A stretch of 64,000 nt of DNA from contig NZ_JAQZSM010000003.1 in the NCBI RefSeq assembly GCF_028745735.1, forward strand, positions 1-64,000. Reading direction: 5' to 3'. The notes under the pieces were generated by a model. The model saw only the letters and a list, made by a program, of their open reading frames with translations, was not told the origin of the DNA and did no database searches. The position numbers were made by a program, and so were the translations under genes. Origin of the DNA: Roseinatronobacter alkalisoli. Its GTDB lineage: Bacteria > Pseudomonadota > Alphaproteobacteria > Rhodobacterales > Rhodobacteraceae. Positions 1,074-62,528 of the stretch are shown one piece after another; the stretch's first letter is position 1, and each line of letters opens with the position of its first letter.

Positions 1074-1249
1074 CCCAAAGGCGCGGAGCAAGGCCGCAGG
1101 CCGCCGCACCATCGGCGGGCCGTCCCGCAGCCTGCCGATGACCCGAGGGTAGTTCAAGCCTTTGAAGTCAGGAGTATGCCGCCGGCATAAACTGCATCCC
1201 TGTAACGTGGGATCGGCAGTCCCCGGCCCACCGATAGCGCGGGCTTGAT
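1074..1249 (-). repeat. Dispersed ~178-bp palindromic element, copy 1
   Basis: Full-length copy in reverse orientation, filling most of the 303-base gap between the 3' end of the 1258-1881 gene and the start of xthA. It shows the shared blocks of the family: an AAGCCCGCGC left end, GGTGGGCCGGGG, TGCCGAT, a GCGGCAT centre, GGCAGGCTGCGGGACGG and a CTCCGCGCCTTTGGG right end. The outer arms are inverted repeats of each other. Just outside the right end it carries CCTGAAGCAGTCAC (plus strand, 1060-1073), which copy 2 also has. The rest of the gap (955-1073) is only the xthA leader. It lies downstream of the unknown minus-strand gene. Confidence 0.85.
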
Positions 1250-13213: not shown

Positions 13214-13394
13214 CTCAAAGGTGCGGAATCAAGGCCGCAGGCTGGCCCACGCCATAGGTCTGGCCGTTCCGCGGCCTGCCGATCCCGCCCGCGTCATGCC
13301 AAGCCTTGGATGTCGGAGTATGCCGCCTGCATAAAGTGAACTTCTCCTACGTGGGACCGGCAGTCCCCGGCCCGACCTGTGGCGCGGGCTTTGT
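13214..13394 (-). repeat. Dispersed ~178-bp palindromic element, copy 2
   Basis: Full-length copy in reverse orientation in the 375-base gap between the convergent CMD-like gene and infC. ACAAAGCCCGCGC marks its left end (13394 inward), then GGGCCGGGGACTGCCGGT, AAGTTCACTTTATGC, GGCAGGCCGCGG and CCTTGATTCCGC. The right-hand GGTGG palindrome is degraded (AGACCTATGG). It shares 14 extra flanking bases with copy 1 (CCTGAAGCAGTCAC, 13201-13214). The rest of the gap holds the infC terminator and nothing else that I can see. Confidence 0.85.
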
Positions 13395-25313: not shown

Positions 25314-25462
25314 GGGCACTCCGATTCGGTTGCTTTGGTCCAAGACCTAGCGCGGTGCCGGGGTAAATGCCACCATCAGAAGGTGTATCACTGCGCGCCC
25401 CGGACCGCAGCCTGATCAGATGGCGGCATCCTGTTCGCGGGTGGTTCTGGTTTGGCGTATTC

Positions 25463-25515
25463 ACAAAGCCCGCGCCAGCGGTGGGCCGGGCTACGCCCTT
25501 GATTCCGTGCCTTTC
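25463..25515 (+). repeat. Dispersed palindromic element, copy with internal deletion
   Basis: Only the two ends of the element remain: ACAAAGCCCGCGC..GGTGGGCCGGG joined directly to CTACGCCCTTGATTCCG. Compared with copy 3, about 125 bases are missing, and the junction falls in a CGGG that occurs on both sides of the lost segment. It lies 48 bases beyond the mipA stop, in the 249-base gap to pepA, which holds nothing else that I recognise. Confidence 0.75.
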
Positions 25516-25562
25516 GAATGTCCAACGCCGGATCTGGCCGACCTCAATCCCAGCCGCGACCG

Positions 25563-29726: not shown

Positions 29727-29904
29727 ACAAAGCCCGCGCTATAGGTGGGCCGGGGTCTGCCGGTTCCACGCTGGATGAGTTCACTTTATGCGGGTAGCAT
29801 TACCCCGCCATTTAAGGCTTGGCCACACGCCAGCGTATCTGGCAGGCTGCGGGACGGCCCACCGGTGGCGCGGCGGGCTACGCCCTTGATTCCGCGCTTT
29901 TGGG
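29727..29904 (+). repeat. Dispersed ~178-bp palindromic element, copy 3
   Basis: Full-length copy in forward orientation between copA and cueR, filling most of the 302-base gap. It starts ACAAAGCCCGCGC, contains GGTGGGCCGGGGTCTGCCGGT early and GGGACGGCCCACCGGTGGCG late, GAGTTCACTTTATGC in the centre, and ends TTGATTCCGCGCTTTTGGG. One frame is open through the whole element and into cueR's reading frame, but translation there is not supported by a start site. The remaining 92 bases before cueR are its promoter and ribosome site. Confidence 0.88.
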
Positions 29905-34984: not shown

Positions 34985-35024
34985 GGGGCGTGACGCGGCG
35001 GGTGTGGCCTTGATTCCGCGCCTT
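34985..35024 (+). repeat. Fragment of the dispersed palindromic element
   Basis: About 40 bases resemble the right end of the element: GCGGCGGG..GTGGCCTTGATTCCGCGCCTTT. The left arm and centre are missing. It lies 56 bases after the stop of the VWA-domain gene, in the 271-base gap that otherwise contains only the DUF4168 promoter region. Confidence 0.55.
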
Positions 35025-35079
35025 TCCGCCCGCTTCACGCCGGATGCCACCAGCCCTTGTGCGTCCCGTCGAAGGGGCG

Positions 35080-44809: not shown

Positions 44810-45853
44810 TCAGGCAGGAAGTGTGGGTGCGCGCCAATCCACCCAGGCGCCATGAAAATCCACGCGCCCGAAATCCAGACATTCGCCGCCAGGCCACAGG
44901 GTCAGCGTCAGTTTCGCGCCTGGTTGCTGGCCGTCATCTTCCATGGACAGATGTGCCATCGGCTCATCCGGGCGCAGCCGCGCCCCGGCACGCGCCAGTG
45001 CCGCAGTGCCCCGCTCTTGCAGGTCGGGGTCCAGATATTGCCAGACGATGGTGTGATAAACCAGATGCAGCGCCTGTGGCAGGGGACGCGACAGGCGTTG
45101 TTCCAGCCAGTCAATCGCGCAACCGCGCGTAATTTCGGGCCGCAACGTCGCGGCCAGTTCCAGCGCCTGCGTTGTCCGGTTCAGCCGGTCACGCTGATCC
45201 GCCCAGATATAGCTAAGCAACCGCAGCCTGTCGGTTTCAGGGTCCAGCGGGTTCAGGTCAACGCCCGCACGCGCGCGGATGATGGGCTTCGCCATCGGCG
45301 GTGGTGCGCCGTGCCATTTCGGTGTCAGGGTCAGTGCGGCATCATCCGGCCCGTAATCGGCGCCATCCACCTGCAGGGCATAGCGATCCCATATCAGGTT
45401 CAGCCCGGCGCTGCTGCCGAGTTCCGACAGCACCAGCGGGCGGTTGAAGGCCGCAGTCAACCAATGTGCAGCGGCAATGACAACACTTGAACGCCGCAAT
45501 TCATTGGTCTGGGGGGCGTGGTCCAAAGTGGCAAGGATGGTGCTTTCATGCAGGCGCAGCAGCGCGTCAATCGCGCGCCACAGTTGAAGATCGGGCACAG
45601 TGTCCGGCGCGGAATACAGCCTTGCCAGAATGGGGGCCTGCCCGCGCAGCACCAGATAATGCAACGCACCGGCAAGGCGCAGCGCCACAGCATCAGGTCT
45701 CAGGCGGTTCTGCGGCCAGTACAGCAACCGGTCGGCAACTGCGCGCCCCGGTGCCAGCCGGTCGGCAATAAGTGTCAGAACGCGCGCTGTCAGCGGCGAT
45801 CCGAGGGCGGCACAGGCGGCTGCCTGCTGGCGCGCATGTTCCCGGAATGTCAT
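44810..45853 (-). CDS. DUF2332 family protein
   Basis: 347 aa. [16 protein letters not shown] near residue 143 resembles motif I of SAM-dependent methyltransferases (glycine-rich loop after an acidic residue), and [10 protein letters not shown] near residue 218 is typical of DUF2332. A methyltransferase role is inferred only. Its ATG overlaps the stop of pth by 4 bp, so both are read from one transcript. Confidence 0.82.
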
Positions 45854-46530
45854 TTGAAGCGATCCATCAGCCGTTGCAGCGGGCTTCGCATATCGGCTGG
45901 GGCGGCGTCGGGCTGCTGGGGGGTATGCTTTGGCGCATCAGGTTTCGGGGTGGGTTTGCGCGCAGGGGTAGTGCGCAGCGCCACAAGATTGGCGAATCGC
46001 GGGCCATCGCCGGTGGCCAGTGCCGCAGCCCCGTCCGCGATACCCTGCAACAGAAGATCCAGCCATTCCTGATCGGATTTTGCGAAATCCGACAATACAT
46101 AGGCCGACACCCGGTCTTTGTGCCCGGGGTGGCCAATGCCCAGGCGCACACGCGCGTAATCTGCGCCGAGATGCGCGTGAATTGACCGCAACCCGTTGTG
46201 CCCCGCATGGCCGCCACCTTGTTTCAGGCGCATCTTGCCGGGGGCAAGGTCCAGTTCGTCGTGGAACACCACCAGATCAGACAGGTCCAGCTTGTAGAAC
46301 CGCATCGCCTCGCCGACGGATTGCCCTGACAGGTTCATGAATGTTCCGGGCTTCAGCAGGACCAGTTTCTCCGCGCCCAGCTTGCCTTCGCTTACCTCTG
46401 CCTGAAACTTCGATCGCCACGGCGAAAAACCGTGTTCCGCCGCGATGCGGTCAACGGCCATGAAGCCGATATTATGCCTGTTGGCGGCGTATTTCGCCCC
46501 CGGATTGCCCAGACCGACAAATAGTTTCAT
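45850..46530 (-). CDS. pth: Peptidyl-tRNA hydrolase
   Basis: 226 aa. Releases tRNA from stalled peptidyl-tRNA. [22 protein letters not shown] has N10 and the catalytic H20-region; [12 protein letters not shown] and [30 protein letters not shown] are the other two signatures. About 40 extra C-terminal residues, rich in K, P and A, extend beyond the usual fold. The start at 46530 is the family one. rplY lies upstream on the same strand, a common pairing, but a terminator and a repeat separate them here. Confidence 0.95.
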
Positions 46531-46672
46531 ATGACATATCCCCTGTCTGCGCCGCAGCATAAAGGTGCAGCGCAGGCGTGAAAAGCGCCGAACGTGCATT
46601 ACCCCATTCCCGTTACAGGCAATAGCGGTAATCGGCTTGGGAGTCCGTGAAACGACAGGTGCCGAATTATAG

Positions 46673-46850
46673 ACAAAGCCCGCGCCAGCGGTGGGCCGGG
46701 GTCTGCCGGTCCGACGTTATAGAAGTTCACTTTATGCAGGCGGCATGCTCCTAAGCTCAACGGCCTGGCATGACGCCAGCAAAACCGGCAGGCCGCGGGA
46801 CGGCCCACCGGTGGCGCGGCGGCCTGTCGGCCTTGTTCCGCGCTTTGGGG
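46673..46850 (+). repeat. Dispersed ~178-bp palindromic element, copy 5
   Basis: Full-length forward copy in the 430-base gap between rplY and pth. The left arm (GCCCGCGCCAGCGGTGGGCC..TGCCGGT) and the right arm (ACCGGCAGGCCGCGG..GGCCCACCGGTGGCGCGG) pair over some 30 positions. GAAGTTCACTTTATGC and GGCGGCATGCTCC fill the centre. It sits 50 bases beyond the rplY terminator and 143 bases before pth. Same length (178 bp) as copy 3. Nothing else is visible in the gap. Confidence 0.9.
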
Positions 46851-46900: not shown

Positions 46901-46936
46901 AAAAAAAACGAGGCACCCCGAAAGGTGCCTCGTAAT
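46901..46936 (-). terminator. Rho-independent terminator of rplY
   Basis: On the minus strand ACGAGGCACC and GGTGCCTCGT form a 10-bp stem with a CCGAAA-type loop, followed by eight T residues. It begins 25 bases after the rplY stop. Confidence 0.93.
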
Positions 46937-46960: not shown

Positions 46961-47578
46961 TTATTCTTCGGCGGTTTCTTCCTCTTCTTCGTTGTCGGAT
47001 GCAACCAGCGCGCGCGGCGCGGCAATATTTGCGATCACGAAGTCACGGTCGATTGTCGATTTGGTGCCTTCGGGCAGGTCGATGGCCGAAATCGTGATTG
47101 TGTCGCCGATTTTCAGACCTTCCAGATCGAAAACCAGTTTCTCGGGGATTTCGCCAGCCAGCACGTTCAGTTCCACCTCGGGGCGGACAACTGTCAGCAT
47201 GCCACCGCGTTTCAGACCGACGCATTTTTCATGGTTGATGAATTCAACCGGAATAAACAGGTTGATCCGGCTGGTGCGGCGCAGGCGCATCAGGTCAACA
47301 TGTTCGGGCAGGCCATTCACGACATGGCGCTGAATACCGCGACAGATCACGCGCACATCTTCCTGACCTTCGACCTTCAGGTTGAACAACCGTGACAGGA
47401 AGCGACCAGCCTTCAGCTGCTTGATCAGGTAGTGATAGTTGAAATTCACAGCCAACGGTTCTGCACCGCCACCGTAAACAATACCGGGTACTTTATGCTC
47501 ACGACGAGCTTGACGAGCGGCCCCCTTGCCTGTCCCCGTCCGTACCTCGGCCAAAAGATCCGGGATCTCACCAGCCAT
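46961..47578 (-). CDS. rplY: 50S ribosomal protein L25/Ctc
   Basis: 205 aa. The N-terminal L25 domain ([30 protein letters not shown]) binds 5S rRNA; the C-terminal TL5/Ctc extension ([15 protein letters not shown], then [23 protein letters not shown]) is normal for this group. The acidic tail EEEEETAEE is common in alphaproteobacteria. Gene order rplY-pth is conserved. Confidence 0.95.
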
Positions 47579-50421: not shown

Positions 50422-50600
50422 CCCAAAGGCGCGGAGCAAAGGCCGATAGGCCGCCGCACCACCGGTGGGCCGTCCCGCGGCCTGCCGATACCGCCAGCGT
50501 CAATTCAAGCCTTTGATGCCGGAGTTATGCAGCCAGCATAAAGCGCATCCCTATAACGCCGGACCGGCAGACCCCGGCCCACCGGTGGCGCGGGCTTCGT
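50422..50600 (-). repeat. Dispersed ~178-bp palindromic element, copy 6
   Basis: Full-length copy in reverse orientation in the 361-base gap between the convergent GntR and ftsH genes. Both CCACCGGTGG palindromes are intact (50459-50468 and 50579-50588), one in each arm. TATGCAGCCAGCATAAAGC marks the centre. It begins 67 bases after the GntR stop and ends 71 bases before the ftsH terminator. The rest of the gap shows nothing more. Confidence 0.88.
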
Positions 50601-62351: not shown

Positions 62352-62528
62352 ACCAAGCCCGCGTCACCGGTGGGCCGGGGTCTGCCGGTCGCACATTGAA
62401 GAAGTTCACTTTATGCAAGCGTCACAACTCCGACCTTCAAAGCGTGAGTCAACGCCAGCCAAACCGGCAGGCCGCGGGACGGCCCACCGGTGGCGCGGCG
62501 GCCTGCGGCCTTGACTCCGCGCCTTTGG
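62352..62528 (+). repeat. Dispersed ~178-bp palindromic element, copy 7
   Basis: Full-length forward copy in the 381-base gap between two convergent genes. CCACCGGTGG-type palindromes are present in both arms (TCACCGGTGGG on the left, CCACCGGTGGCG on the right). AAGAAGTTCACTTTATGC is in the centre and GCGGCCTTGACTCCGCGCC at the right end. It ends 38 bases before the stop of the 62567 gene. The remaining 166 bases after the membrane protein stop show no feature. Confidence 0.9.

Follow-up and report, generated by a model that had tools for sequence, protein, structure and literature searches.

Which of the described intergenic repeats of bacteria come closest to the element reported here? In enterobacteria, ERIC (also IRU or RU-1) is presented as an intergenic imperfect palindrome of 100-200 bp with a species-dependent copy number (PMC10969869, PMC2229807), and the table of the latter source gives it a length of 127 bp, 7-bp terminal repeats, TA termini and a target duplication. 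The entries of the same source describe YPAL (RU-2) of Yersinia, which is about 168 bp long, has internal inverted repeats, is not A+T-rich, is mobile as judged by empty and filled sites and makes target duplications of 3-26 bp, as well as CIR, an alphaproteobacterial intergenic repeat of about 110 bp with two hairpins, one of which holds a conserved GANTC (PMC2229807). REPINs are characterized as extragenic inverted units that form a single-stranded hairpin with compensatory changes and are linked to the Y1 transposase RAYT (PMC3116915), while Br-REP1 of Bradyrhizobium is reported from the overlapping 3' UTRs of convergent genes at about 200 intergenic sites (PMC5082802). In the open-licence literature, no description of the present repeat was found, and the main text of PMC3733652 mentions neither Rhodobacter nor Paracoccus, Roseobacter or Ruegeria.

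Judged by these descriptions, the repeat of Roseinatronobacter alkalisoli resembles ERIC in being an intergenic, multi-copy, imperfect palindrome with a high copy number in some genomes and a low one in others, and in having both empty and filled orthologous sites (unpolarised), but it is about 170 nt long, has two hairpins and occurs in another bacterial class. The likeness to REPINs lies in two folded inverted units that form a hairpin with compensatory changes; the difference is that no match to the Y1 transposase family (PF01797) was found in the own genome. In this search there were no candidates in the own genome, none of 15 genomes over the cut-off and two of the 15 with a weak match, while the controls were positive in 5/14, and a REPIN/RAYT origin was accordingly set aside. 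The element is longer than CIR, and a GANTC in stem B is found in 14/54 own copies, 3/10 copies of Roseinatronobacter sp. S2 (hereafter S2) and 0/2 copies of the genome G012, which sets it apart from CIR as that repeat is described. Br-REP1 is given a 20-nt core palindrome, CCGGAATCTCGAGATTCCGG, and belongs to another genus with another anatomy, and target duplications as listed for YPAL are not readable here. As for Rfam, no match at the curated thresholds occurs in the window, and around the copy c4 (see below) a search at E <= 10 gave only sub-threshold matches, the best at 0.028 and outside the core. The statement of the preliminary description that no named element has this sequence thus agrees with Rfam and the open-licence literature. 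The repeat is real, family-wide, structured and apparently unnamed within these two sources. By analogy it resembles non-autonomous elements of the ERIC/REPIN type, but neither a RAYT nor the conserved GANTC of CIR was found. Our preferred reading, for which we have slightly better than even confidence, is that these small dispersed repeats of Rhodobacteraceae form one ERIC/REPIN-like family, non-autonomous and dependent on their structure.

The window, that is, the whole stretch of 64,000 nucleotides analysed, is positions 1-64000 of the contig C54 in a genome of 4.84 Mb and 130 contigs. Six full-length copies had been noted in it, and a profile built from them recovers all six within the window at the same places (E 1e-55 to 3e-59), with a mean column identity of 82%. 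According to the loop motif, c3, c4 and c6 are on the + strand and c1, c2 and c5 on the - strand. The cores, each composed of stem A, loop and stem B, are located at 1080..1246 (c1, in a tandem gap between two - strand genes), 13220..13391 (c2, in the convergent gap between a CMD-domain gene on + and the IF3 gene on -), 29730..29898 (c3, in a tandem gap 3' of a heavy-metal P-type ATPase gene on the same strand), 46676..46844 (c4), 50428..50597 (c5, in the convergent gap between a GntR/FCD gene on + and an FtsH-type gene on -) and 62355..62523 (c6, in a convergent gap). The c4 copy lies in a tandem gap, antisense to both of its neighbours, a ribosomal L25-type gene (46961-47578, -) and a peptidyl-tRNA hydrolase gene (45850-46599, -). 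The deleted copy and the fragment that had also been reported were located as well: the former, a 5' arm fused to the end of stem B, at about 25466..25511 on + (profile match 25452-25519), and the latter, stem B only, at 34990..35025 on +. All six full-length copies are 3' of at least one gene and none is in a divergent gap, as had been claimed, but c1, c3 and c4, being in tandem gaps, are also upstream of the next gene.

The anatomy differs from the single symmetric palindrome that was first proposed. The core unit of about 170 nt is asymmetric: stem A, which spans about 24 bp and contains an asymmetric internal loop, is directly adjoined by a short second hairpin, stem B, whose consensus reads GCGCGG-[GGCC TGC GGCC]-TTGATT-CCGCGC. 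In the 63 non-redundant cross-genus copies that a script picked from 104 (alignment A4), the loop of stem A measures 70-74 nt (median 73), and within the loop, conservation across the family is highest in TTTAT; it should be noted that for 44 of these 63 copies, CTTTAT and stem B were preset in the search pattern. In c4, the 5' arm of stem A lies at 46680..46710, the loop motif CTTTAT at 46730..46735, the 3' arm at 46784..46819 and stem B, GCGCGG...CCGCGC closing the hairpin GGCC-TGTC-GGCC, at 46814..46843, all on +. Two folds compete, in which GCGCGG pairs either within stem B or with GCCGCGC at the 5' end of the element; in the single-sequence fold of c4 this alternative partner is GCCCGCGC. 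The stability of the c4 fold is z -3.1 on the + strand and -3.0 on the - strand. Of the motifs in the preliminary description, the core CCACCGGTGG, said to be in each arm, is present in both arms of c5 only, in the 3' arm of 4/6 copies (c3-c6) and in the 5' arm of 1/6, and the conserved centre AAGTTCACTTTATGC is exact in c2, c4 and c6, one base off in c3 and more divergent in c1 and c5. In the own genus, the unit reaches about 35-40 bp further on each side, to about 245 bp, and includes an outer inverted repeat, GGCCTGAA...TTCAGGCC, of weak conservation. It is readable in c2 as GACCTGAAGCGG...TGACTGCTTCAGGCC, and c1 has one half, TGACTGCTTCAGGTCA, on its 3' side. As a general terminal repeat it is doubtful, since it is readable only in a subset of the own genus: runs of at least 9 occur in 8/74 copies versus 4.6 with shuffled partners, and across genera in 3/77 versus 2.3. 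Neither stem is followed by a long T run as in an intrinsic terminator, and a CTTTGGG-type sequence comes after stem B. Deletion derivatives occur in the own genome (for example C54:182958 and C38:76410), and there are several in S2 (for example C1:1837233 and C1:1891013); those examined are fusions of the outer 5' arm with the inner 3' arm that retain the hairpin, and the inner part of one S2 derivative is flipped.

Compensatory changes in the arms were found, which had been suggested as a check. In stems A and B of A4, 94.8% of the cells pair, compared with 83.5% after shuffling, both sides change in 20/33 pairs versus 11.2, and the covariation score is 0.284 versus 0.089, a value reached in 0/500 shuffles; when the partners are slid, the pairing drops to 34-44%. 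An alternative model with the pairing between the 5' end and the middle performs nearly equally (93.8% paired, 19/35 pairs, score 0.273). The variation of A4 in CTTTAT and stem B comes from 19 rows, both being fixed in the 44 pattern-fetched rows, and the double changes in stem B concern 3 pairs with 1-2 sequences each. Within the own genome there is little variation, with double changes in 5/29 pairs. The pairing is thus maintained by compensatory change, and the folded shape is kept while the letters change, so that this is a real element rather than chance. In addition, G-U cells exceed A-C cells in the stems: A4 has 71 of the former and 24 of the latter, and the alignment of 36 own copies (A3) has 33 and 14. 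This speaks for folding of the strand in the orientation used here; the A4 excess is uneven, two columns contributing 36 of the 71 and G-U prevailing in 14 columns, A-C in 8, and cells are non-independent.

How far does the family extend? The covariance-model search that had been advised gave matches in the own genome far beyond chance. The model from the 36 own copies (R1, 150 candidates scored) gave 139 rows at E <= 0.001 in the own genome, or 137 places after removal of 2 opposite-strand echoes, 12 of which are deletion derivatives of 61-75 bp. In the complete genome of S2, 136 rows less 17 echoes leave 119 places, with a match on the plasmid NZ_CP121115.1. A scan of 40 genomes, the own included, found matches in 17/24 genomes of the genus (1 to at least 71 each) and in 0/16 genomes from other families of the class. 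Over 295 genomes of the family, R1 matched 86, in 85/294 genera, with copy counts that are lower bounds at 9 candidates scored per genome. With the cross-genus model from the 63 copies (R2), 220/390 genomes and 87/139 genera of an order sample match, and every match is in one family, f1; in a class sample, the 4/385 matching genomes all belong to f1 as well, and a fifth listed f1 genome is without a match. From its named members, we infer that f1 is GTDB's Rhodobacteraceae, which NCBI splits into Paracoccaceae and Roseobacteraceae. The named carriers include marine Roseovarius, Sulfitobacter, Ruegeria and Phaeobacter as well as bins that bear the names Paracoccus and Rhodobacter. When named genomes were scanned with a DNA pattern, at least 115 stretches matched, whose names we take to be all of Rhodobacterales among the matches listed; 80 of them (L200-L279) were analysed and the other 35 considered by taxon name only, and no copy was extracted from L254 and L274, where the match is too close to the end of the stretch. 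The stretches of genome G007 hold 8 copies. No match was obtained in phage records.

The sample for placement relative to genes was 846,839 bases from the own genome, namely four whole contigs and 80 kb of contig C1 picked for its copies. Among the 66 copies scoring at least 75, 41 are between convergent genes, 24 in tandem gaps (9 on the same strand as the genes, 15 antisense), 1 in a divergent gap and 0 inside predicted genes, while the adjacent gene pairs of the same sample are 118 convergent, 554 tandem and 117 divergent (copies versus pairs, p 1e-20). Two convergent gaps even hold two copies each. The gene-end placement noted in the window therefore extends beyond it. The lengths of element-free gaps lead to an expectation of about 14% of copies in convergent gaps, compared with 41/66 observed, and consequently promoter avoidance alone is an insufficient explanation. 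A 360-kb stretch of S2 has 7 convergent and 4 tandem copies, and 99 copies across genera, for which the counts outside the own genus are approximate because the codon-model gene caller misses low-GC cargo genes, divide into 42 convergent, 36 tandem (16 same strand, 20 antisense), 8 divergent, 1 in a gene and 12 at a locus edge. On annotated plasmids, taking the best place of each of four, the S2 copy and two Salipiger copies are between convergent genes, and the Pseudosulfitobacter copy is in a tandem gap of 552 bp. As to the replication strand, 61-62 of the 105 copies on the S2 chromosome are lagging and 43-44 leading (p 0.08-0.12), a split that varies with the placement of ori and ter from GC skew.

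Comparison of orthologous sites revealed that the occupation is variable. Between the own genome and S2, whose syntenic blocks are mostly 78-86% identical, c4, c6 and the copies at C54:172418 and C120:63998, plus a fragment at C54:220398, are absent from the orthologous site in S2, and four S2 copies and one fragment are absent from the own genome; these differences are unpolarised, and some may be losses. The c4 site is empty in G012 as well. At C54:172418, the genes of S2 almost abut, with a difference of 240 bp. At c6, a neighbouring stretch of about 0.6 kb with a predicted gene is also missing in S2; a cassette of gene plus element was considered here and dropped, since the missing neighbour scores as an ordinary gene and a plain deletion in S2 fits equally. 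The exact boundary, or a target duplication, is unreadable because the flanks of the empty sites differ. Four sites are common to both genomes (c5, C54:147785, C54:182959, which is a deletion derivative in the own genome, and C98:107694), and the orientation is opposite in 3/4 after the direction of synteny was accounted for; c5, in identical orientation, is common to S2 and G012. The closer pair, G012 and S2, is 95.3% identical over 189 kb. Of 8 G012 copies in 260 kb, six are at sites with a full S2 copy and two at sites with a partial one; the orientation is opposite in 2/6 of the former, with collinear flanks, and in one of the two latter, the other being the same. At the six sites, the core identity is 84.0-94.0% and that of the 400-bp flanks 87.0-98.2%, all 80 core pairs of G012 with S2, the six site pairs among them, have a median of 86.5%, and in 5/6 sites another of the 10 S2 copies is a better match. 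These results fit frequent replacement or flipping in place. For the loci L344, L349 and L350, no shared site was found.

How might such a pattern arise? A putative trans-acting factor would recognise the single strand in its folded form and copy or replace the unit, and copies would accumulate where promoter, reading frame and operon all stay unbroken. Recombination, both between the inverted arms and with other members of the family, would overwrite or flip existing copies, whereby the site would persist and its occupant change. The points in favour of such mobility, which had been proposed as one of the alternatives for the repeat and is supported by its lineage-specific copy number, are the copy number, the spread, the presence or absence at orthologous sites, the turnover and orientation reversal in place, the arm covariation, the G-U excess and the convergent placement. 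The points against it are that the tested class of mover, the Y1 transposase, is without a candidate in the own genome, and that in a low-copy genus, g60, a copy stays beside pheS in 16/18 genomes. Differences in orientation at fixed sites and the position beside swapped cargo genes are, in the descriptions of ERIC and REP elements cited here, without a counterpart. Covariance models, copy lists and genome pairs are now at hand for testing movement, in-place flipping and a function at convergent gene ends.

The genus g60, which is probably Ruegeria as inferred from named loci that share its sites, has 18 genomes, each with 1-3 copies. Removal of 7 echoes from 34 rows gives 27 copies, of which 24 border two variable cargo-gene slots. 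At the first slot, all 16 copies beside pheS are antisense to it (pheT is visible in 12/16 loci), and the order is pheS, a low-GC stretch of 295-715 bp (GC 0.41-0.52), and the element. This stretch is one ORF on the pheS strand in 13/16 loci, the exceptions being L407, L418 and L415, and these ORFs start at most 66 bp from the pheS stop and end 0-92 bp ahead of the element. Merely two pairs of the stretches are homologous over more than 100 bp, and several of the proteins have a weak N-terminal similarity, while pheS itself is about 90% identical at the DNA level across the genus. It can also be observed that in the slot after the pheS stop (L335-L337, L339, L340, L399-L423) almost every genome has a different ORF. 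That the pheS 3' end is replaced along with the cargo was rejected, as there is only a mild drop to 0.83 in the last 30 bp from 0.87-0.94 before. In five genomes compared, the element is 82-91% identical and the flank on the stem-B side (left) is unalignable, so the retention at pheS, going by these alignments, looks like constraint and not like mere transposition. The stem-B end is changed or incomplete in at least five pheS copies (L415, L416, L420, L422, L423). Of these, L422, L415 and L423 share a substitute for this end that has a hairpin of its own (CCATTGGTTCAAGCCCAATGG), next to which 55-60 bp are nearly identical. In two genomes of the genus g48, the copy follows 11-15 bp after pheS with no ORF between. 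Among further PheS loci (the best 30 of 115 genomes), five match, L354 with 141 bits, L353 with 82, L378 with 47 (on the other strand), L358 with 34 and L357 with 26; the remaining 25/30, including one g60 (L351) and one g48 (L352) genome, are without a match.

At the second slot, the element stands upstream of rplB, next to low-GC DNA, in 8/18 g60 genomes, and the full rplW is visible in six loci. The 3' end of rplW (residues ~67-98) is partially duplicated in L430, L432, L435 and L437, and doubtfully in L429. The cargo between rplW and rplB (L429-L435, L437) includes a desaturase, a match to TIR-TM, which is a defence candidate by its sequence, and proteins without assignment; the S10 operon is interrupted here, as if units had integrated successively at the rplW end. 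The named loci with the same sites are Ruegeria sp. HKCCD8929 (rplW-rplB), R. atlantica (upstream of rplB), Phaeobacter marinintestinus (rplW-rplB, in the other orientation) and Roseovarius aestuarii (pheS-pheT, in an orientation other than that of g60). Another site, beside parE, is common to two genera (L341, L348). Behind the fixed sites of g60 there may be a constraint or a cassette border, or they may simply lie close to exchange hotspots.

Could the folded unit then act in RNA, terminating, separating or stabilising transcripts at gene ends, chiefly convergent ones? Between convergent genes the folding strand is always read by one of the two, and the strong convergent enrichment, both in the own genome and across genera, the RNA-like covariation with G-U above A-C, the stable fold of c4 on either strand and the retention next to pheS in g60 would all suit such a device. 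However, tandem copies are on the same strand in 26 and antisense in 38 cases (p 0.17), and the absence of a strand bias speaks against a device in the 3' UTR of sense RNA, which was set aside as the main role on these counts; the proposal that the repeat terminates or stabilises the mRNA of the upstream gene finds no support here. Moreover, all of the g60 pheS copies are antisense, a long T run is seen after neither stem, and fixed sites differ in orientation between species. Predicted intrinsic terminators are about equally frequent in convergent gaps with the element (13/46) and without it (35/94), although the sequence searched is shorter beside elements (185 versus 241 bp on average), and hence a replacement of intrinsic terminators was also discarded for want of a clear difference. 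At c4, the L25 gene already has a canonical terminator ahead of the element and outside it, GAGGCACC..GGTGCCTC with a T run, at 46901..46933 on -. On balance we hold a transcript-level role to be unlikely, but not negligible. A duplex or cruciform palindrome bound as a site of DNA architecture, by a nucleoid protein, a topoisomerase or as a CcrM/GANTC mark, would account for gene-end placement without strand bias and for the GATTC, a GANTC site, in the stem B consensus, which is present in 11/18 cross-genus copies not selected for it. It is nonetheless very unlikely in view of the few own, S2 and G012 copies with GANTC in stem B, the 1-3 copies per g60 genome and arms that are conserved by compensation, not by sequence. 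Template switching between the arms of a quasi-palindrome corrects mismatches and yields changes that look compensatory, so the covariation might be unselected. That the arms interact is indicated by the deletion derivatives and the one inner flip in S2. Yet the separate hairpin stem B also has double changes, if few, TTTAT and the 70-74-nt loop are kept in A4 (with the fetching pattern stated above), and the G-U over A-C asymmetry is strand-specific, so that we rate this explanation, too, as very unlikely.

The variable slots invite yet another comparison. Integron attC sites carry the core sites RYYYAAC...GTTRRRY and are served by an integrase. An attC-like or att-like folded site that exchanges single-gene cargo, with high-copy genomes holding mostly empty units, would agree with the g60 order at pheS and its nearly always different single ORFs, with the low-GC DNA at rplB and the duplicated rplW 3' ends in 4/8 loci (a fifth being doubtful), with the TIR-TM match among the cargo, with the two g48 genomes where the element directly follows pheS, and with the folding strand at pheS being the complement of the cargo coding strand. 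However, attC core sites such as GTTRRRY were not seen by eye at the element ends of the A4 consensus, the copies in the window have ordinary genes as neighbours, the low-GC gap at parE adjoins the opposite end of the element, several cargo proteins share the weak N-terminal similarity, and homologous recombination in the conserved flanks alone could swap cargo. Such a site is in our estimation improbable. Much the same doubt, perhaps a shade less, attaches to a bolder version, in which the unit would serve, as a folded and strand-specific border, a system that exchanges genes at the 3' ends of housekeeping genes and is parallel to attC but has an unrelated site, with its cargo swapped at pheS and rplW-rplB in the Ruegeria-like genus and its borders multiplied without cargo in Roseinatronobacter.

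Some further observations concern individual carriers. The own contig C98 has the highest copy density among the fetched contigs (24 hits in 179 kb) and the lowest predicted coding density (0.82), as if it were plasmid- or island-like. In Salipiger abyssi (L073:2868-3110), another, REP-like inverted repeat, GTAGGGTGGGCAATCTGCCCACC, stands on either side of the element. In two Sulfitobacter loci (L234, L249), there is what looks like a palindromic insertion of about 24 nt (TCATGTCGCAGACATGC...) within the 3' arm of stem A.
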